Assembly (NCBI GenBank): GCA_029568545.1
Contig: JAKQAH010000131.1
Span: 1 to 32,112, forward strand
Origin: Candidatus Omnitrophota bacterium
GTDB lineage: Bacteria > Omnitrophota > Gorgyraeia > Zapsychrales > Zapsychraceae
Reading direction: 5' to 3'
DNA length: 32,112 bases
The position numbers were made by a program, and so were the translations under genes. Below the pieces are notes generated by a model, which was given only the letters and a program-made list of their open reading frames with translations, had not been told where the DNA came from and did no database searches. Below are positions 8,901-27,916 of this stretch, in pieces (within the stretch, counting starts at the first letter, position 1; each line of letters opens with the position of its first letter).

Positions 8901-11456
8901 ATGAAAAAAACCGTTATCTGCCTCATCATCAGCCTCGGCGTCGCCTGTTCCCTCGTATTCCTTGAGAGGTCTTCGTTTTATCAGATCTTGAATCTGAAAT
9001 TGTATGACCTTCAAATGAACTTGCGCAAGCCGCCCGACCAGGACCCGAGAATCCTTTTTGTGGAAATGGACGAAGAAGCGATCAACACCCTCGGACGGTG
9101 GCCCTGGCCGCGGAACATCCTCGCGCATATCATTGACACCCTGGCCTCCCTGGGGGCCCGTCAGATCATTTTCGACATCACATTCGCCCAACCCAACCAA
9201 ATCATCATCGATCGCCAAGCCGTGGGGCACATTTTTCAGGGCAAAGACCAGATCAGCGGCTACATAACGGATGAGATCGGCGCCCTCAAAGGGAAAGAAA
9301 CCGTCTCACAGCAAGATGCCGCATGGGTCTTGGATCAGGTCCAAAAGAATTTTCTGGAATTCGCCGGAGCTGCAGAGCAAAAACTCCACAGCGCCCTCGT
9401 CGACAATGATCAGGCCCTGGCGGAGTCCTTCCGCAAGAGCGATTCGTTTATCGGCTACTCATTCGAGGTCATTACCGAAAAGAATGACCTCGAAAAAGAT
9501 CGCGTTTACCCTCGAATAAGGGATGCCATGGTTGATTGGGCCGATAGCCGCCTCGACCAACCGTTCGAAGCCTTGCCCTCTTCTCTAAAAAAGAACGCGT
9601 ATTTCAATGCCGCAGATCTCAAAAAGATCTTTTTGCGCGCAAAGATCCAATCGCTCATCAAAAAGAATATCGAGATCTCCCTCGAGGAAGCGGCTAGGCA
9701 GCTTGGCGCCGACCCAAAAGGGATCAGGCCTGATTTCTATCTCGTCAAGCATCAGATGATCGTTGAGAAGATCCTGGCAGCCTTGGAAAGCTCTTCCAAT
9801 GCGCAGCTTCTGGACATCATTTACCAGCTCGAGATCTTCGATCCCGATACACAACAGCTTTTCCAAGAAGCCTGGCCGAGAATCCAGAAAGAATTTACCG
9901 CTGCCGCGAAATTCGGGAAATCCCTCCCGAAGGGCCAAGGCTTTCTGAAAGCAAAAAGCATGGAAGCCCCGATCGTATCATTCTCCGGCGCCGTCAAGGG
10001 CGGAGGTTTTTTAAACGGGATCCCTCACCAGGACGGCGTCCTTCGTTCCGTTCCGCTGTTCATTAAATACAAGGACAGGGTTTTTCCTCACATTGCCATT
10101 GCCAGCATCCTTGAGCTCTACAGACCCGAACAGATCATGTTCGATCCCGGAAAATATTTTATCCTGCATAAAGCAGATATTTCCGGACAATCCAAAGACG
10201 TCTTTATCCCTATTGATAAAGACGGCACAATCCTGATCAATTGGGCGGGCCGATGGCAGGATACGTTCCGCCATATTTCCGGCGGGGAAATTTATAGGCT
10301 TTTCTTCATGAGAGACGCGGCCGCAAACGCCCAGGACGATCCCAACCAAACCGCTAATCTGCAAAAAGAATTGGAAGAAAAAGAGGCGGCTTTAGCGAAA
10401 GCCGTCAAAGATAGCATCTGTATCATAGGATTAACGGCAGCGGGCACGCATGACTTTAATCCCATCCCTTATGAGTCAACCTATCCGATGGTCGGCACGC
10501 ACGGGAACGTCCTTAACTCCATCCTTACCCATCAATTCATAACCCGGGCGCCTGCTTCTGTCAATTTTGCGATTCTCGCAATCCTGGGAATCCTCATGGG
10601 CATCTTTTTGTCTTTGCTTTCTTCCGTCAACGGCCTTTTTTTCACGATGATCATTTCGGCATCCATCTTTCTGGCTTCTTTCCACTGGTTCCAGCAGGGC
10701 CTGTGGCTGAATCTGGCCTCCCCTTCTTTGCTGGCGCTCTTCTCTTATCTGGGCATCACAAGCTATAAATTCTCGACGGAAGAGAAAGCAAAGAGGCAGA
10801 TCAAGAACGCGTTCTCGAAATACGTTTCGCCCGAAGTTATCGAAGAGATCCTGCAGGATCCTTCCAAGCTCCGATTGGGCGGCGACCGGAAAGAATTGAC
10901 CGTTTTGTTCAGCGACATCCGCGGGTTCACAACGTATTCGGAGAAAAGAAAACCGGAAGAAGTTGTCAGCATCCTCAACGAATATCTCGATGCCATGACC
11001 AAAGTCATCGTTGCGCATAAGGGAACCCTGGATAAATATGTCGGCGATGAGATCATGGCTGTTTTTGGCGCGCCTCATTTTCAGCCGCCGGAAGAAAACG
11101 CCAAAAGCGCCGTGACCTGCGCCTTAAAGATGCTGGAGCGGCTCAAAGAGCTCCATGAGGAATGGAAGCAGCGCGGGCTCGAACCATTGGATATCGGCAT
11201 CGGCATCAATACGGGGGAAATGGTCGTCGGCAACATGGGGTCCGAGCTGCGGATGGACTACACCGTGATCGGCGATGCCGTTAATTTGGGCGCCCGCGTC
11301 GAAGCCTTAACCCGCCAATTCAACGTCCGTTTAATCGTTACCGAAGCCACTTATGTTTACATCAAGAGCCTTGTTGAAGCAAGGCCGCTGGAAAGCATTA
11401 AGGTCAAGGGAAAAGAAATCCCGGTGACGATCTATGAAGTGATCTCTTTGAAATAA
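8901..11456 (+). CDS. CHASE2-domain class III adenylate/guanylate cyclase
   Basis: The protein has 851 residues. An N-terminal membrane helix (residues 4-20) is followed by a periplasmic CHASE2 domain with its usual signature (YDLQMNLRKPPDQDPRILFV, GRWPWPRN, IIFDITF) and its second half at about 354-520 (FLNGIPHQDGVLRSVPLF). Residues about 190-354 are an unusually long helical insertion. Three membrane helices follow at about 550-625, then a class III cyclase domain from about 640. The metal Asp pair is D672 (FSDIRGF) and D716 (KYVGDEIMAVFG). K712 and D786/T788 (DYTVIGD) occupy the base-selecting positions. N795 and R799 are the transition-state residues, so catalysis should be intact. The Lys plus Asp-x-Thr set favours ATP and cAMP, though GTP cannot be excluded. 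It is three bases downstream of the DUF3307 gene. CHASE2 domains are known extracytoplasmic sensors; the ligand is not predictable. Confidence 0.92.
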   Translation: MKKTVICLIISLGVACSLVFLERSSFYQILNLKLYDLQMNLRKPPDQDPRILFVEMDEEAINTLGRWPWPRNILAHIIDTLASLGARQIIFDITFAQPNQIIIDRQAVGHIFQGKDQISGYITDEIGALKGKETVSQQDAAWVLDQVQKNFLEFAGAAEQKLHSALVDNDQALAESFRKSDSFIGYSFEVITEKNDLEKDRVYPRIRDAMVDWADSRLDQPFEALPSSLKKNAYFNAADLKKIFLRAKIQSLIKKNIEISLEEAARQLGADPKGIRPDFYLVKHQMIVEKILAALESSSNAQLLDIIYQLEIFDPDTQQLFQEAWPRIQKEFTAAAKFGKSLPKGQGFLKAKSMEAPIVSFSGAVKGGGFLNGIPHQDGVLRSVPLFIKYKDRVFPHIAIASILELYRPEQIMFDPGKYFILHKADISGQSKDVFIPIDKDGTILINWAGRWQDTFRHISGGEIYRLFFMRDAAANAQDDPNQTANLQKELEEKEAALAKAVKDSICIIGLTAAGTHDFNPIPYESTYPMVGTHGNVLNSILTHQFITRAPASVNFAILAILGILMGIFLSLLSSVNGLFFTMIISASIFLASFHWFQQGLWLNLASPSLLALFSYLGITSYKFSTEEKAKRQIKNAFSKYVSPEVIEEILQDPSKLRLGGDRKELTVLFSDIRGFTTYSEKRKPEEVVSILNEYLDAMTKVIVAHKGTLDKYVGDEIMAVFGAPHFQPPEENAKSAVTCALKMLERLKELHEEWKQRGLEPLDIGIGINTGEMVVGNMGSELRMDYTVIGDAVNLGARVEALTRQFNVRLIVTEATYVYIKSLVEARPLESIKVKGKEIPVTIYEVISLK

Positions 11457-19107: not shown

Positions 19108-19719
19108 TTAATACTTGACCGAACATCCGTAGGATTTTGTCGCCGAAACCTCAATGGGATCCCCCTTAAGGGAAGCATCGAGCGCTTTTTTGACATAATT
19201 ATCCGCTTGAGCGATCTCCCCCGGATCCGTTCCGGCGATACTATCGATCGCGCCTTGATAAATAAGCCTTCCTTGGGGATCAATAATAAAAAGATGGGGC
19301 GTGGTAGCGGCCCCATACATGCGCCCAATGGTTCCTTCAGGATTGACAATAACCGCAGTCGGGCTCGCCTCTTTTTCCCCCATGATGCGATTTGTCTCTT
19401 CCGCTCCATAATATCCCTGGTTCCCCATCGCGGAAGAGCATATGGAAATCCAGATAACCCCTTGTTGCGTGTATTTCTTTTGCAGTTCTTGCATATTGCC
19501 GCTGCCGTAATGTTTCTTAACGAATGGGCAATCAAAATTGAACCATTCTAAAACGATAAATTTGCCCTTATAGGCCGACAACGACCGCTCCATGCCTTTG
19601 GTATCTTGAGCCTTAAAATCCGGGGCTTGATCTCCAACGCTAATAGCCGCCTGGCTGACACTGGCTCCAAAAACCGAAAAAAGCACAGCCAATAAAAATA
19701 TTTGTACGTGTTTTTTCAT
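19108..19719 (-). CDS. Periplasmic redoxin (AhpC/TSA-type) with DCPFVKKHY motif
   Basis: The protein has 203 residues from the ATG at 19719, which has AAGGAG upstream. A signal peptide (residues 1-24, LLAVLFSVFGASVSQAA) precedes a thioredoxin-like fold: GDQAPDFKAQDTKG, FIVLEWFNFDCPFVKKHY, a cis-Pro-like TTPHLFIIDPQG and a C-terminal GCSVKY. The active-site Cys64 is not in a CXXC pair. The DCPFVKKHY box and the GCSVKY tail (Cys199) mark a known group of redoxin-domain proteins, where the tail Cys could act as the resolving residue. This is inferred. It is encoded 13 bases after the DsbD alpha-like gene, suggesting that the two share reducing or oxidising equivalents in the periplasm. Confidence 0.87.
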   Translation of the reverse strand: MKKHVQIFLLAVLFSVFGASVSQAAISVGDQAPDFKAQDTKGMERSLSAYKGKFIVLEWFNFDCPFVKKHYGSGNMQELQKKYTQQGVIWISICSSAMGNQGYYGAEETNRIMGEKEASPTAVIVNPEGTIGRMYGAATTPHLFIIDPQGRLIYQGAIDSIAGTDPGEIAQADNYVKKALDASLKGDPIEVSATKSYGCSVKY

Positions 19720-19732
19720 GGCAACTCCTTCC

Positions 19733-20593
19733 TTACAAATCGCCCTCAGAAAAATTAATTGGTTCATCGATCGCTAAAGCGCGGCGGTTCCCTTCCCACG
19801 GCTCCGATGATACCAGAACCCCCTTCAATTGAGTAGTATTTTTGTAGGCAATGACAGACTTGGGGATGGTCAACCGATAGCTGTTCCCGGTCTTTTCGAA
19901 TACTTGCTGGGCCTGATGGTCAATCAAATCATTGCGTTCGGGGAAAAAAGCTGTTTGGGTCAATGCGGCCGCTCCAATAGCGGACGGAATTAAATGAAGC
20001 CGGTAGGAATCGCCGTCATCATATGCGCCAACAGTCCATTGGCTCGCTTCTTTGGGCCAGTTGTTCATCGTTTCATCAAACATCTGCAAAATGGATAGAT
20101 TGATAGCCGGCTCTTCGGCTTGGACAGGTAACGTCAAGGATAGATCCGCCTTTCCCGGAACGCACATGTTTCCGCAGGATAACCAAGTCACATGGGCCTT
20201 AACTGTTTGCTGGCTTCCGATTTCAAGATTTTCCGGCGGGGTTATTTCCGTCATCAGAATAACCTTGTCTTTATAACCGTAGCTGGTAATCTCCGGGTAA
20301 TCCAGCCTTACGGGAAAAGGCCATTGGATCTCCCCGGCTTTAAAACCTTCTGGAAGGTCCCAAGCAATTGTTGTCGCCAATCCTGAGTCGCCCGGATTCT
20401 TCCAATATGTCTGCCAGTTATCATCCATGTCCATCTGGAGCCCCACCCAGAATGGCCGTCCCGGCTGGATCGCCTTGATATTGCTGACCAGATCAACGTT
20501 CACAAAAGCATTGTAGACAGGCTCGGCAAAGGCCGGGCGGACGCACACGCTCAAGACTAGGACAGCCCCCCATAAATATCGGCATATTTTCAT
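19733..20593 (-). CDS. DsbD alpha-like (DsbC-family) secreted protein without membrane domain
   Basis: The protein has 286 residues from the ATG at 20593, six bases after GGAG. An adjacent ATG at 20596 is closer to the SD. Residues 1-23 are a signal peptide. The rest matches the immunoglobulin-like N-terminal domain of DsbD/ScsB proteins: PFWVGLQMDMDDNWQTYWKN, the GDSGL motif, SYGYKDKVILMTEIT and CGNMCVPGKADLSLTLPV, with the redox pair C140 and C144. The DsbD membrane channel and C-terminal thioredoxin domain are absent, so it needs a separate electron source. The redoxin gene directly downstream is the obvious candidate, and the HtrA-Hsp20 gene lies 31 bases upstream. Together they suggest a periplasmic thiol and protein-quality unit, which is an inference. 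Confidence 0.85.
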   Translation of the reverse strand: MKICRYLWGAVLVLSVCVRPAFAEPVYNAFVNVDLVSNIKAIQPGRPFWVGLQMDMDDNWQTYWKNPGDSGLATTIAWDLPEGFKAGEIQWPFPVRLDYPEITSYGYKDKVILMTEITPPENLEIGSQQTVKAHVTWLSCGNMCVPGKADLSLTLPVQAEEPAINLSILQMFDETMNNWPKEASQWTVGAYDDGDSYRLHLIPSAIGAAALTQTAFFPERNDLIDHQAQQVFEKTGNSYRLTIPKSVIAYKNTTQLKGVLVSSEPWEGNRRALAIDEPINFSEGDL

Positions 20594-20624
20594 CATCAGC
20601 TCCTATAAAACGTGCCTGATACTA

Positions 20625-21905
20625 TCACATTCTCGGGAAGGTAACAATAACAACATCATCTTTCACTTCCGTTTTGACGTTACCTGTATCTGCATCCGCA
20701 GGCAAAGGGATTGTCTTGAAAAAAGATCCGATACTGCGCGAGCTATAGTAGCCGTTTGGCCCCTGTTCTTCTTCCGTCACGGAACGCTCGCCGGACACGG
20801 TCATGAACCCGTTATTGATCTCAATATTGATCTTGTCCTTGTCAATCCCGGCGACTTCAATCCTGACGATATACTTGTCCTCTTTTTCCTCAATATCAAA
20901 ATCCGCATTATAGGAAATATCCGTATTGAACATGCCCTTCGGACTGTTCCCGCCCCCACTGCCATAGATGCCTTGGAACATGCTGTCCATTTCGTCCCGG
21001 ATGCGTTGCATTTCCTGGAACGGATCCCATTGGCTTCTTGGCCCTAAAGGCTCGGATTCTTCCTGCGGCAGAAATTGGGATGAATTTGCCGCAGCTTTAT
21101 GCTTGATCGCAAGATTTTTATTGTCTTCATGGGTTTTCAAAGCAGCTTTGACTTTCTCGACCGGAATGGCAAAGCCGATGCTCTGGGAATTCTGAACAAC
21201 CGCAACATTGATCCCGATGACTTCCCCATCGAGATTGAGCAAAGCCCCGCCGCTGTTCCCGGGATTGATGGGCGCATCGATCTGCAGCAATTCTCCCATC
21301 ACATTTGTCCCGCGCGATGAATAAATATCCCGGTTCTTTCCGCTGATGACGCCCGATGTAACCGAATTCTCCAATCCCAGGGGATTCCCAATCGCAACAA
21401 CAGACTCCCCGATCATGATATCCTCCGTTGTTCCGAGCTTAACTGCCTTGAGCGGCTTGGGCGGATTTATCCTTACAATGGCCAAGTCGTCCTTGGGGTT
21501 TTCATAAACAATCTTGCCCGCGACAGATGTTCCGTCATTTAAAATAACAAAAATGTTGCTCGCCATATGTACAACATGCGCATTGGTCACAACCAACCCG
21601 GCATCATCAATAATGACTCCAGAGCCGACGCTATTGAGCTTTAAAGCGCGCCGCGGCCTTTGGAAGCCAAAAAACTGATCGAAGAACAGATCGAATTCGC
21701 TCTCGTACGGTCCCCAGGAAGGATTCTCCCGTAAGAGAAGAATGTGCTCGGTGGCAATGTTCACAACCGCTTCCGCGTTTTCCTTGACCACTTTCACGAC
21801 AGGGGTTTCACGGGCGCTCGTTGCCTGCGCCTCAGCGTATCCCACAACCGATAGGAGCCCAATACCCAAACAAAAAATCAGATAGAGAGATAGGAATTTT
21901 TTCAT
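20625..21905 (-). CDS. HtrA/Deg-type serine protease fused to an Hsp20 alpha-crystallin domain
   Basis: The protein has 426 residues with a signal peptide (about 1-25, FCLGIGLLSVVGYAEA). GGAGG stands before the ATG. Residues about 35-255 are a trypsin-like HtrA domain with the full triad: H110 (TNAHVV), D140 (KDDLAIVRI) and S218 (GNSGGALLN), plus oxyanion-region GNPLGL and SIGFAIP. HtrA proteins normally continue with PDZ domains. Here a linker of about 70 residues leads instead to an alpha-crystallin domain at about 330-426 (EKEDKYIVRIEVAGIDKDKI, NGFMTVSGER, FFKTIPLPADAD, VVIVTFPRM). The C-terminal IXI-type tail is missing. I infer a periplasmic protease whose substrate capture is done by the small heat-shock domain. 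It heads an operon with the DsbD alpha-like and redoxin genes. Confidence 0.93.
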   Translation of the reverse strand: MKKFLSLYLIFCLGIGLLSVVGYAEAQATSARETPVVKVVKENAEAVVNIATEHILLLRENPSWGPYESEFDLFFDQFFGFQRPRRALKLNSVGSGVIIDDAGLVVTNAHVVHMASNIFVILNDGTSVAGKIVYENPKDDLAIVRINPPKPLKAVKLGTTEDIMIGESVVAIGNPLGLENSVTSGVISGKNRDIYSSRGTNVMGELLQIDAPINPGNSGGALLNLDGEVIGINVAVVQNSQSIGFAIPVEKVKAALKTHEDNKNLAIKHKAAANSSQFLPQEESEPLGPRSQWDPFQEMQRIRDEMDSMFQGIYGSGGGNSPKGMFNTDISYNADFDIEEKEDKYIVRIEVAGIDKDKINIEINNGFMTVSGERSVTEEEQGPNGYYSSRSIGSFFKTIPLPADADTGNVKTEVKDDVVIVTFPRM

Positions 21906-21959
21906 GAGGATCCTCCTTTTTTGAACGCGGCAAACGATAAAAATCCCGGAAATGTAATA

Positions 21960-21987
21960 ATTTTACTCATTTCATTTGTATTTTCAA
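21960..21987 (-). promoter_or_regulatory. Promoter for the protease-Hsp20 operon
   Basis: On the minus strand TTGAAA (21987-21982) and TAAAAT (21965-21960) are 16 bases apart, with an AT-rich spacer. The expected start lies about 50 bases before the ATG. No CIRCE-type inverted repeat was seen. Confidence 0.5.
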
Positions 21988-24780: not shown

Positions 24781-25983
24781 TTAACTTCTCTGGAGAGATT
24801 CTTTGAATTTCTTCGTCAAAAGAGGAACGATCTCAAAAAGATCTCCGACGATGCCGTAATTGGCCACTTCAAAGATGGGAGCCGAAGAATCTTTATTGAT
24901 CGCGATGATGATCTTCGAAGATTGCATGCCGACAAGATGCTGGATCTGGCCGGAAATACCGCAGGCGAAATAAACATTCGGGCAGACCGTTTTTCCCGTT
25001 TGCCCGATCTGATGCGCATACGGAATCCAGCCGTTGTCAACGGCGACACGGGTCGCGCCGACGGTTCCGCCCAGGGCATCCGCAAGTTCTTTAAGGATGG
25101 CGAAGTTCTCGCCGGAGCCTAACCCCCGGCCGCCGGCAACGATCACATTGGCTTCGCTGATATTCACCGCTGAAACCAATTCTTCCGCCACTTTGAGGAC
25201 TTTTGTCCTGGAAATAAAAAACGATTTATCGTAATCATTTTCAATGATCTGTCCTGTCCGGGAAGTGTCTATCGGGCTTTCCGGAAGGACCTTATGCCTG
25301 ACCGTCGCTAATTGAGGCCGGTGATATTGGGAAAGGACCGTCGCCATAATATTGCCGCCGAAGGCCGGGCGCGTCTGAAGAAGAAATTTCTGCTGCGGCT
25401 CAATGTCCAGCTGCGTGCAATCGGCCGTGAGCCCGACGCGCAATTGAACGGCCACTCTCGAAACCACCGATCTGCCGATCGTCGTTGCGGGGACCAAAAG
25501 GATTTCCGGCCGGTGTTTCCGGATCAAGTTCGTCAGAATTCTCGCATAGGGCTCGTCCAGAAAGTTTTCCAGTTTCGGATTGTCCGCGACATAAACAACA
25601 TCAGCCCCTCGGTGAATAACAGTCTGAGCCTCCTCTTTGACATTGGCCCCGATCAGAACGCATCCCACTTCAACTTGAAGCTTATCCGCCAATTCCCGCG
25701 CTTTGCCTAAAAGCTCGTAGACCACCGGCTGGACCTTCCCGTGTTTTTGCTCGCCAAAAACCCAGACGCCTTTGTATTTTTCCATATCCGGCGTTCGGGT
25801 CGTCTCCCGGATGATCTGAATAGCTTCAAATTTTCGGCACGCCTCTACGCAGGAGCTGCACAGCGTGCACTTGTCCAGATCGATCACGGCCTTTTTGTTT
25901 ACGATCGTGATCGCGCCGAACGGACAGGCCTTTTCACAAAGCCCGCATCCGGTACATTTATCCTGGTTAACAGATATTCCCAT
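24781..25983 (-). CDS. etfA: Electron transfer flavoprotein alpha subunit with N-terminal 2[4Fe-4S] ferredoxin domain
   Basis: The protein has 400 residues. Its ATG overlaps the etfB stop in a TAATG junction, so translation is coupled. Residues 1-50 are a ferredoxin domain with two cluster motifs: C10, C13, C16, C20 and C39, C42, C45, C49. Residues about 65-250 are the EtfA N domain (GVWVFGEQKHGKVQPVVYEL) and about 270-400 the FAD-binding domain (AGGRGLGSGENF, HQIGQTGKTVCPN, YFACGISGQIQH, AINKDSSAPIF). A ferredoxin-bearing EtfA is known from bifurcating systems such as caffeyl-CoA reductase CarE and lactate dehydrogenase LctC. With the acyl-CoA dehydrogenase encoded upstream, this should couple NADH oxidation, acyl-CoA reduction and ferredoxin reduction, in either direction. 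The bifurcation itself is inferred. Confidence 0.95.
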   Translation of the reverse strand: MGISVNQDKCTGCGLCEKACPFGAITIVNKKAVIDLDKCTLCSSCVEACRKFEAIQIIRETTRTPDMEKYKGVWVFGEQKHGKVQPVVYELLGKARELADKLQVEVGCVLIGANVKEEAQTVIHRGADVVYVADNPKLENFLDEPYARILTNLIRKHRPEILLVPATTIGRSVVSRVAVQLRVGLTADCTQLDIEPQQKFLLQTRPAFGGNIMATVLSQYHRPQLATVRHKVLPESPIDTSRTGQIIENDYDKSFFISRTKVLKVAEELVSAVNISEANVIVAGGRGLGSGENFAILKELADALGGTVGATRVAVDNGWIPYAHQIGQTGKTVCPNVYFACGISGQIQHLVGMQSSKIIIAINKDSSAPIFEVANYGIVGDLFEIVPLLTKKFKESLQRS

Positions 25984-26765
25984 TAAATCAGATGCTCCTT
26001 CAATACAGCGACAATGGCATTCACAGCGCCTTCCGGATCCCCGTCGTAAATCTGGCCCTTGCTGCGGGCGGGCGGCGTGTAGATCTTCCATACTTCCGTC
26101 GGAGATCCCGCGATCCCCAAGCGGTCGCTTTCCGCCTCGATATCAGCAGCTTTCCACGTCAGGATTGCGGCATTCTTGGCTTTCATTTTGCCTTTAAGCG
26201 ACGGGATCCTGGGATTGTTGATCTCTTTGACGACCGTTAACAGGCAGGGCAAGGGAGACTGGAGGACTTCGTATCCTTCTTCTGTCGTGCGTTGCGCCGT
26301 GATGGATTTTTCTTCCAGCGCTTCGATCTTGCGCACGTAAGTAATTTGAGGAATGTCCAGATGCGCAGCGATGCCCGGGCCGACTTGAGCCGTATCTCCA
26401 TCGATCGCCTGCTTGCCGCAAATGATGAGATCGTAGTCCTTGATCTTTTTGATTGCCATCGCGAGCGTATAGCTTGTCGCGAGCGTGTCCGCGCCGGCAA
26501 AAGCCCGGTCGCTGACCAAGATCGCCTCATCGGCGCCAAGAGAAATCGCTTCCCGCAAGGCCGCTTCCGCCTGCGGCGGCCCCATCGTCACCACGGTCAC
26601 TTTGCCGCCGTGTTGCTCGACGATGCGGACCCCTTCTTCGATCGCATACAGGTCATAGGGGTTGATGATGGACTTGACGCCTTCGCGGATGAGATTCTTG
26701 GTGATGGGATCGATCTTCACCTGGGTCGTTTCGGGGACCTGTTTGATGCAGACAACAACGTTCAT
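25983..26765 (-). CDS. etfB: Electron transfer flavoprotein beta subunit
   Basis: The protein has 260 residues, a normal length. It begins MNVVVCIKQVPETTQVKID, the usual start of EtfB. It has the INPYDLYAIEEG motif, the GADEAILVSD segment and the AIDGDTAQVGPGIAAHLDIP signature that forms the second flavin or AMP site, which in bifurcating Etf proteins holds FAD. Its ATG overlaps the acyl-CoA dehydrogenase stop in an ATGA junction, and its own stop overlaps the etfA start, so the three genes are tightly coupled. EtfB pairs with EtfA in the cytoplasm and contacts NADH in bifurcating members. I see no missing key motif. Confidence 0.95.
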   Translation of the reverse strand: MNVVVCIKQVPETTQVKIDPITKNLIREGVKSIINPYDLYAIEEGVRIVEQHGGKVTVVTMGPPQAEAALREAISLGADEAILVSDRAFAGADTLATSYTLAMAIKKIKDYDLIICGKQAIDGDTAQVGPGIAAHLDIPQITYVRKIEALEEKSITAQRTTEEGYEVLQSPLPCLLTVVKEINNPRIPSLKGKMKAKNAAILTWKAADIEAESDRLGIAGSPTEVWKIYTPPARSKGQIYDGDPEGAVNAIVAVLKEHLI

Positions 26766-27916
26766 TGAACCGTTTCCTTCATCAAGGCCAGGCCGATGAT
26801 GTTTCTTTGGATCTGATTCGTTCCCTCGTAGATCTGGGTGATCTTGGCATCGCGCATGAATTTCTCGACCGGATATTCCTTCATGTAGCCATAACCGCCG
26901 AAAATCTGGACGGCATCCGTAGCGACTTTCATAGCGACATCGGAGGCGAACATTTTTGCCATGGCGGAATCTTTGCCCACATCCTTACAACCGGCATCGA
27001 TCTCCCTGGCTGAGGCATAAACGAGAGCCCGGGCCGCTTCCGTTTGGGCCGCCATATCGGCCAGCATCCATTGAATGCCTTGAAAAGTCAGGATCGATTT
27101 TCCAAATTGTTTTCTCTGTTTGGCATATTTCAGCGCATGGTCCAACGCGCCCTGGGCGATCCCGACAGCCTGCGCCCCGATCCCGGGCCGGGAGATATCC
27201 AGCGTTCTCATCGCCGCGATAAACCCCATCCCTTCCTTGCCTAAAAGATTTTCCTTCGGGACCTTGCAATCCGTAAAGATCAACTCCCGGGTCGACGAAG
27301 CGCGGATCCCCATCTTATCTTCTTTTTTTCCGAATTCAAAGCCGGGAGTCCCTTTTTCCACCACGAACAGGCTCGCCCCGCGCGCCCCTCTGGCCTTATT
27401 CGTCATGGCAATGATCGTATAAATATCGGCGTCCCCGCCGCTTGTCACGAAATGCTTCATCCCGTTGATAACATAATGATCGCCTTTTAATTCGGCCGTC
27501 GTCAGCATCGCTGACGCATCGGACCCGGCGGACGGTTCCGTCAAGCCGAACGCGCCTAACTTCTTGCCGCTTGCGATCAACGGAAGATATTTCTTCTTTT
27601 GCTCCTCCGAACCGAATAAAAGAATCGGATAGGTCCCTAAAGCCGACGCCGCATAACAAAGAGCGATCCCCGCGCATCCACGGGAAAATTCTTCCGTTGC
27701 CAGGCAGATATCAAAGATGCCTCCCCCCATCCCGCCGTATTCCTGGGGAATATAAACGCCAAAAAGATCCGATTGAGCCATGACCTTAACAATATCATGG
27801 GGAAAATGCCCCGTCTTATCATGTTCAAGAGCCGCTGGCCGGATTTTTTCGTCTGTGATCTGACGGCTGATATCCCGGATCATTTTTTGCTCTTCTGTCA
27901 GCAGATAATCTATCAT
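26762..27916 (-). CDS. Acyl-CoA dehydrogenase (short-chain/butyryl-CoA type)
   Basis: The protein has 384 residues, typical for the family. AGGAGG stands seven bases before the ATG. Motifs in order are MIDYLLTEEQKMI, the flavin-contact GAFGLTEPSAGSDA, the substrate-pocket stretch ISRPGIGAQAVGIAQGALD and the C-terminal QIFGGYGYMKEYPVEKFMRD. The catalytic base E364 is in IYEGTNQIQR. Bcd-like enzymes work with EtfAB to reduce crotonyl-CoA-type substrates or to oxidise acyl-CoA. It is the first gene of a coupled operon with etfB and etfA, under a promoter with a palindromic operator. The natural acyl chain length cannot be fixed from sequence alone. Confidence 0.95.
   Translation of the reverse strand: MIDYLLTEEQKMIRDISRQITDEKIRPAALEHDKTGHFPHDIVKVMAQSDLFGVYIPQEYGGMGGGIFDICLATEEFSRGCAGIALCYAASALGTYPILLFGSEEQKKKYLPLIASGKKLGAFGLTEPSAGSDASAMLTTAELKGDHYVINGMKHFVTSGGDADIYTIIAMTNKARGARGASLFVVEKGTPGFEFGKKEDKMGIRASSTRELIFTDCKVPKENLLGKEGMGFIAAMRTLDISRPGIGAQAVGIAQGALDHALKYAKQRKQFGKSILTFQGIQWMLADMAAQTEAARALVYASAREIDAGCKDVGKDSAMAKMFASDVAMKVATDAVQIFGGYGYMKEYPVEKFMRDAKITQIYEGTNQIQRNIIGLALMKETVQ

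Follow-up and report, generated by a model that had tools for sequence, protein, structure and literature searches.

A conserved fusion of an HtrA-type protease and an alpha-crystallin domain in Omnitrophota, related to stand-alone exported small heat shock proteins

The Candidatus Omnitrophota DNA analyzed here (32,112 nucleotides, hereafter the window) encodes in a single frame an HtrA-type serine protease that carries a C-terminal alpha-crystallin domain (ACD) of the small heat shock protein (sHsp, Hsp20) type (Table 1). Such a fusion had been proposed in the first-pass annotation of the window, with the strand unstated, and it is borne out by Pfam, AlphaFold2 (AF2) and a comparison of 13 genomes; the reading frame lies on the minus strand. 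The architecture is real, conserved and patchily spread across Omnitrophota among the genomes searched, and the data directly support the domain arrangement, the catalytic residues, the ACD fold, the export-type N terminus and a common ancestry with exported sHsps. The fusion is a variant of HtrA and not a new kind of enzyme. We favor the reading, with a probability of about 0.6, that it is an envelope protease whose ACD captures unfolded clients in place of PDZ-type modules and perhaps also links trimers.

Table 1. Features of the fusion gene, its neighbors in the window and the genomes that carry the fusion
Feature	Positions	Strand	Basis or remark
Whole HtrA-Hsp20 fusion gene, 426 aa	20625..21905	-	Open reading frame and translation, Pfam
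Signal-peptide-like N terminus, residues 1 to ~26	21828..21905	-	MKK n-region, hydrophobic core, AEA site; hydropathy
HtrA-type serine protease domain, residues 31-262	21120..21815	-	Pfam Trypsin_2, NCBIfam TIGR02037, PDB HhoA/HtrA, Foldseek HtrA/DegS/DegP
Catalytic His110 codon	21576..21578	-	Invariant in 13 fusion proteins
Catalytic Asp140 codon	21486..21488	-	Invariant in 13 fusion proteins
Catalytic Ser218 codon, GNSGG motif	21252..21254	-	Invariant in 13 fusion proteins
Flexible linker, residues 263-335	20901..21119	-	Low pLDDT except helix
Hsp20-type N-terminal helix WDPFQEMQRIRDEMDSMF, residues ~295-314, inside linker		-	AF2; motif also in stand-alone exported sHsps
ACD, residues 336-426	20628..20900	-	Pfam HSP20, AF2, Foldseek, alignments
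Ribosome-binding site AGGAGG	21912..21917	-	Sequence; start codon ATG downstream
Promoter-like TTGAAA-16-TAAAAT	21960..21987	-	Consensus match only; 6 found in region versus 5.2 expected by chance
Exported-type protein, DsbD N-terminal domain	19733..20596	-	Pfam; 28 bp downstream of fusion gene; also after fusion in G004
Exported-type AhpC/TSA thioredoxin-fold protein	19108..19767	-	Pfam; also in G004 (synteny)
Fusion carriers, family f1			G000, G001, G004, G007, G008, G020, G026, G030
Fusion carriers, other families			G128 (f17), G170 and G307 (f15), G199 (f8), G084 (f57, different class)

Pfam placed Trypsin_2 at residues 94-232 (8.5e-35) and HSP20 at residues 337-425 (1.6e-14), well clear of the curated cut-offs in both cases. 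On the plus strand, the interval of the gene contains several stops. The NCBIfam model TIGR02037 matched residues 36-262 as the Do/HtrA protease region, with the match ending where the PDZ part of the model would start, and the score of 229 bits lies below the full-length Do-family cut-off of 416 bits. HhoA and Thermotoga HtrA were the nearest PDB entries by sequence for the protease part, and plant, yeast and bacterial sHsps were the nearest solved structures for the ACD. Pfam detected no PDZ domain in the protein, and residues 263-335 show no PDZ-like fold in the AF2 model. HtrA proteases typically carry one or more C-terminal PDZ domains (PMC12826053); since these are typical rather than strictly required, we class the fusion as an HtrA variant. 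With HtrA, DegP, DegQ, DegS and HhoA (MEROPS S1C) it shares an exported trypsin-like protease domain, the GNSGG motif and the His-Asp-Ser triad, whose assignment in the first-pass annotation (H110, D140, S218) is upheld by the alignment of the 13 fusion proteins; it differs from them in having an ACD at its C terminus in place of PDZ domains. At least one further HtrA-type gene is present in the genome of the window (C71, a 539-aa open frame), and its match extends into the PDZ part of the model.

The AF2 model of the full chain, based on 33 related sequences, has a mean pLDDT of 81 and a pTM of 0.71, and shows a signal helix, two domains predicted with confidence and a weakly predicted linker with its helix at residues 295-314. 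The ACD reaches a pLDDT of about 79-95 in this model, and Foldseek searches with the full model returned HtrA, DegS and DegP structures. When the C-terminal part was folded alone the pLDDT was 71, with 83-91 over most of the ACD and 66-68 in the beta5-beta7 loop, and all 50 Foldseek matches listed for the isolated ACD were sHsps or alpha-crystallins (best E 8e-6, probability 1.00). Residues 336-426 are thus predicted to form an alpha-crystallin sandwich, as had been proposed, although the domain begins at about residue 336 and not at 330. Long paired strands are predicted in the beta6-loop region of the isolated ACD, and the stretch from beta5 to beta7, which includes the dimerization loop and beta6, aligns without gaps to the plant class I sHsp 5ds2. 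With bacterial and plant-type sHsps (Hsp20, PF00011; wheat Hsp16.9, pea Hsp18.1) the fusion shares the ACD fold, the full-length beta5-beta7 loop and a WDPFxEMxRM-type helix; unlike them it is of the exported type, is fused to a protease and stops at the last ACD strand (protein end VTFPRM), without the C-terminal IXI/V motif. In addition, the usual sHsp signature A-x-x-x-n-GVL reads T-E-V-K-D-D-V-V in the window ACD.

The N terminus MKKFLSLYLIFCLGIGLLSVVGYAEAQA resembles a Sec signal peptide with an AEA↓QA-like cleavage site, and its hydropathy maximum is 2.56, compared with 1.26 or less in cytoplasmic Hsp20s of the same phylum. All fusion proteins have such an N terminus, as judged by sequence and hydropathy. 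BamA/Omp85 is encoded in the genome of the window, which points to an outer membrane in the host, so that the secretion suggested in the first-pass annotation gains support from sequence features of both the protein and the genome.

Both domains are joined in this way in one frame in 13 Omnitrophota genomes; these represent five families, one of them in another class. Intact fusions were found in 10 of 384 genomes sampled from the phylum. The contig that carries the fusion in G001 is the public record JAGLQN010000403.1 (Candidatus Omnitrophota). No fusion was found among 68 genomes of Candidatus Hydrogenedentes, and a search of plasmids gave no match at 80% coverage. The genome of the window is a fragmented draft of 196 contigs, and two separate genes could in principle have been joined by a sequencing or assembly error or by a chance open frame. 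However, the same join is present in 13 separate assemblies with no stops, and where Hsp20 and HtrA genes are neighbors elsewhere they stand in the opposite order; we regard the probability of such an artifact as negligible. The homologous fusions in 12 other genomes, open through both domains, likewise rule out a frameshift or an assembly join between the domains.

Beyond the fusion, Omnitrophota encode stand-alone exported sHsps of about 200-230 aa, whose N terminus is a signal peptide or, in certain groups, a segment of the transmembrane type. Many of these proteins continue with a short LKKQIEALQKRVDELE-like coiled coil, then a WDPFxEMxRMQEEM-type helix and then the ACD. Their N-terminal hydropathy maxima of 1.8-3.8 contrast with values of at most 1.3 in cytoplasmic Hsp20s, and the C-terminal end of the fusions and of the nearest exported sHsps lies at or just past the last ACD strand, whereas cytoplasmic Hsp20s of these genomes retain IXI/V-type tails. 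A search for exported sHsps at E<=1e-25 matched 79 of 384 phylum genomes. Fusions and some ~160-aa cytoplasmic Hsp20s are among these matches, so the count gives only a rough idea of frequency. As the nearest relatives of the fusion ACD, these proteins share with it the signal peptide, the helix and, in the nearest cases, the missing IXI motif; they differ in standing alone, in their N-terminal coiled coil and, in some cases, in being encoded beside an exported HtrA. The sequence features of this phylum-wide family strengthen the earlier proposal of an ATP-independent chaperone working outside the cytoplasm. Hsp20s with an N-terminal transmembrane-type segment are also encoded in Candidatus Hydrogenedentes MAGs (L002:5653-6456, L003:5770-6456), so exported or anchored sHsps are not confined to Omnitrophota.

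Five genomes from the family of the window (L031-L035) have an exported sHsp gene directly upstream of an exported HtrA gene, so that genomic neighborhood, and not fusion alone, links exported sHsps with HtrAs. Both of the two neighboring HtrAs tested contain a PDZ domain. In L031 (2929-5551) the pair follows two cytoplasmic hsp20 genes, with a CIRCE box at L031:5683, and CIRCE-like (HrcA) boxes precede several of these hsp20 clusters. Among the matches listed for the 32 genomes of the family, the fusion (8 genomes) and the gene pair (5 genomes) showed zero overlap, which is not significant at these numbers, and we did not retain mutual exclusion of the two arrangements. Nor is heat-shock control of the fusion gene itself supported: no CIRCE element is present in the window, and in G001 a terminator-like hairpin stands between a CIRCE-hsp20 unit and the downstream fusion gene.

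To trace the origin of the two halves, we compared protease and ACD trees. In the protease tree a single branch separates all fusions from the other proteases, with 100% bootstrap support. The proteases most similar to them are PDZ-less HtrAs of about 270 aa from other Omnitrophota, which are 43-53% identical to the window protein. An exported HtrA subfamily of this length (L050-L058) has neither a PDZ domain nor an ACD. The ACD tree separates exported from cytoplasmic Hsp20s at 98/95 and unites fusion ACDs and stand-alone exported sHsps of Omnitrophota in one 100/100 clade, within which the fusion ACDs do not resolve as a single group. The protease tree thus favors a single fusion event, which the ACD tree does not prove. 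Because the nearest protease relatives also lack PDZ domains, the ACD was probably joined to an already PDZ-less HtrA; the first-pass description of an ACD "instead of" PDZ domains holds for the absence of PDZ and probably not for a replacement. Origin by read-through of neighboring PDZ-HtrA genes was discarded, as the order there (Hsp20 followed by HtrA) is the reverse of that in the fusion and the HtrAs concerned lie in a clade of their own. An 887-aa lipoprotein-like protein (MVNSGC; L098:397-3057, plus strand, G130:C7) has a C-terminal ACD at about residues 780-875 that groups with the fusion ACD from a genome of the same genus; by its placement in the tree, this ACD apparently reached a second exported carrier.

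Relatives that do without an ACD raise the question whether the ACD is a passive leftover of gene fusion, with the protein working as a plain PDZ-less HtrA. A fourteenth copy of the fusion (L049, G373:C145), in which the ACD frame is broken after about 40 residues by decay or sequencing error, would fit this explanation. Against it stand the deeply diverged fusion genes, 13 of 14 of which encode an intact ACD, and the completeness of the predicted ACD fold. Moreover, comparison of the window with two congeners gives a dN of 0.18-0.22 for the ACD, far below synonymous change, which is saturated (pS 0.76-0.86); the ACD is under purifying selection. The corresponding dN is about 0.10 for the protease and 0.33-0.34 for the linker, so that variability decreases from linker to ACD to protease, and in one relative (L048) the N-terminal helix before the ACD is lost. 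We consider a passive leftover very improbable.

The two genes downstream of the fusion, which encode the DsbD N-terminal domain and AhpC/TSA proteins (19108-20596, minus strand), share a few codons at their junction; the membrane and C-terminal parts of DsbD are missing. Judged by gene content, these neighbors would link the fusion to envelope thiol chemistry only in the window's genus; the neighbors in other genera are different. Elsewhere in the window, a CHASE2 sensor is joined to an adenylate/guanylate cyclase domain (8901-11456, plus strand), and electron-transfer flavoprotein subunits, one with 4Fe-4S domains, adjoin an acyl-CoA dehydrogenase (24781-27916, minus strand). The alpha subunit and dehydrogenase of the latter resemble acryloyl-CoA reductase subunits, possibly as an electron-bifurcating set.

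With regard to mechanism, we infer trimerization, ACD pairing, client holding and hand-over to the protease. The signal peptide would direct the protein out of the cytoplasm and be removed by signal peptidase to leave a periplasmic quality-control protease, whose HtrA domain should trimerize as in other HtrAs and would thereby place three ACDs at the protease rim. On its flexible linker of about 70 residues, the ACD would take the role known for PDZ domains in DegP and DegS and bind unfolded or aggregating envelope proteins without ATP near the active sites of the trimer, so that clients could be held or cut. sHsp ACDs pair via the beta6 loop; since this loop has its full length in the fusion, such pairing might bridge at least two trimers into a cage, in parallel to the PDZ-PDZ contacts in DegP. 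The missing IXI/V motif makes a standard sHsp oligomer unlikely, and with the dimerization loop kept and the tail absent, the trimer rather than tail binding would organize the ACD. Together with the altered GVL signature, this absence also means that the ACD may not assemble or bind clients in the manner of classical sHsps.

An alternative is that the ACD serves mainly in assembly or regulation, its pairing joining HtrA trimers into cages or gating the active site with little client binding. C-terminal modules are known to build HtrA trimers into larger cages, as in DegP, and retention of the dimerization loop without the C-terminal assembly motif would suit such a role. The ACD, however, derives from a family of stand-alone exported sHsps, some of them in CIRCE-preceded hsp20 clusters, which fits chaperones better than pure scaffolds, and we consider a mainly structural or regulatory ACD unlikely. 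An ACD that captures clients for the protease remains our preferred reading, and the hold-and-degrade function proposed in the first-pass annotation is plausible and, on comparative sequence grounds, has stronger support than one would gather from the window alone.

The function of HtrA proteases is commonly explained via PDZ domains, and sHsps are viewed as mainly intracellular. The folds of Skp, SurA and Spy are unrelated to the sHsp fold. All three are known ATP-free periplasmic chaperones (PMC10014586). sHsps have been described in the mitochondrial intermembrane space, a compartment termed a periplasm equivalent (PMC10014586); unlike the fusion, these are imported eukaryotic cytosolic sHsps with no protease fused. 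In acidophiles, hsp20.2 genes lie near htrA and co-regulation has been proposed, but the genes are separate and the part of that study considered here reports no Hsp20 export or fusion (PMC10490939). Our search of the open-access literature turned up no paper on Hsp20 in Omnitrophota, on the export of sHsps in bacteria or on HtrA-Hsp20 fusions.

Arguably, the fusion itself matters less than the family of exported sHsps to which its ACD is related. By sequence features, the ATP-free sHsp class, known mostly from inside cells, is probably active in the cell envelope too, and the stand-alone proteins suggest that the sHsp fold was recruited to the envelope at phylum scale. It is tempting to speculate, although we hold this only tentatively, that exported sHsps form an envelope branch of the Omnitrophota heat-shock response, partly under HrcA/CIRCE control, and that the fusion of such an sHsp to an HtrA trimer in at least five families has produced a protease-chaperone cage of a new type, where PDZ domains give way to ACD pairing and client capture. 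A single exported natural chain with both modules allows a direct test of whether substrates can be captured, and cages built, by a holdase in place of PDZ domains.
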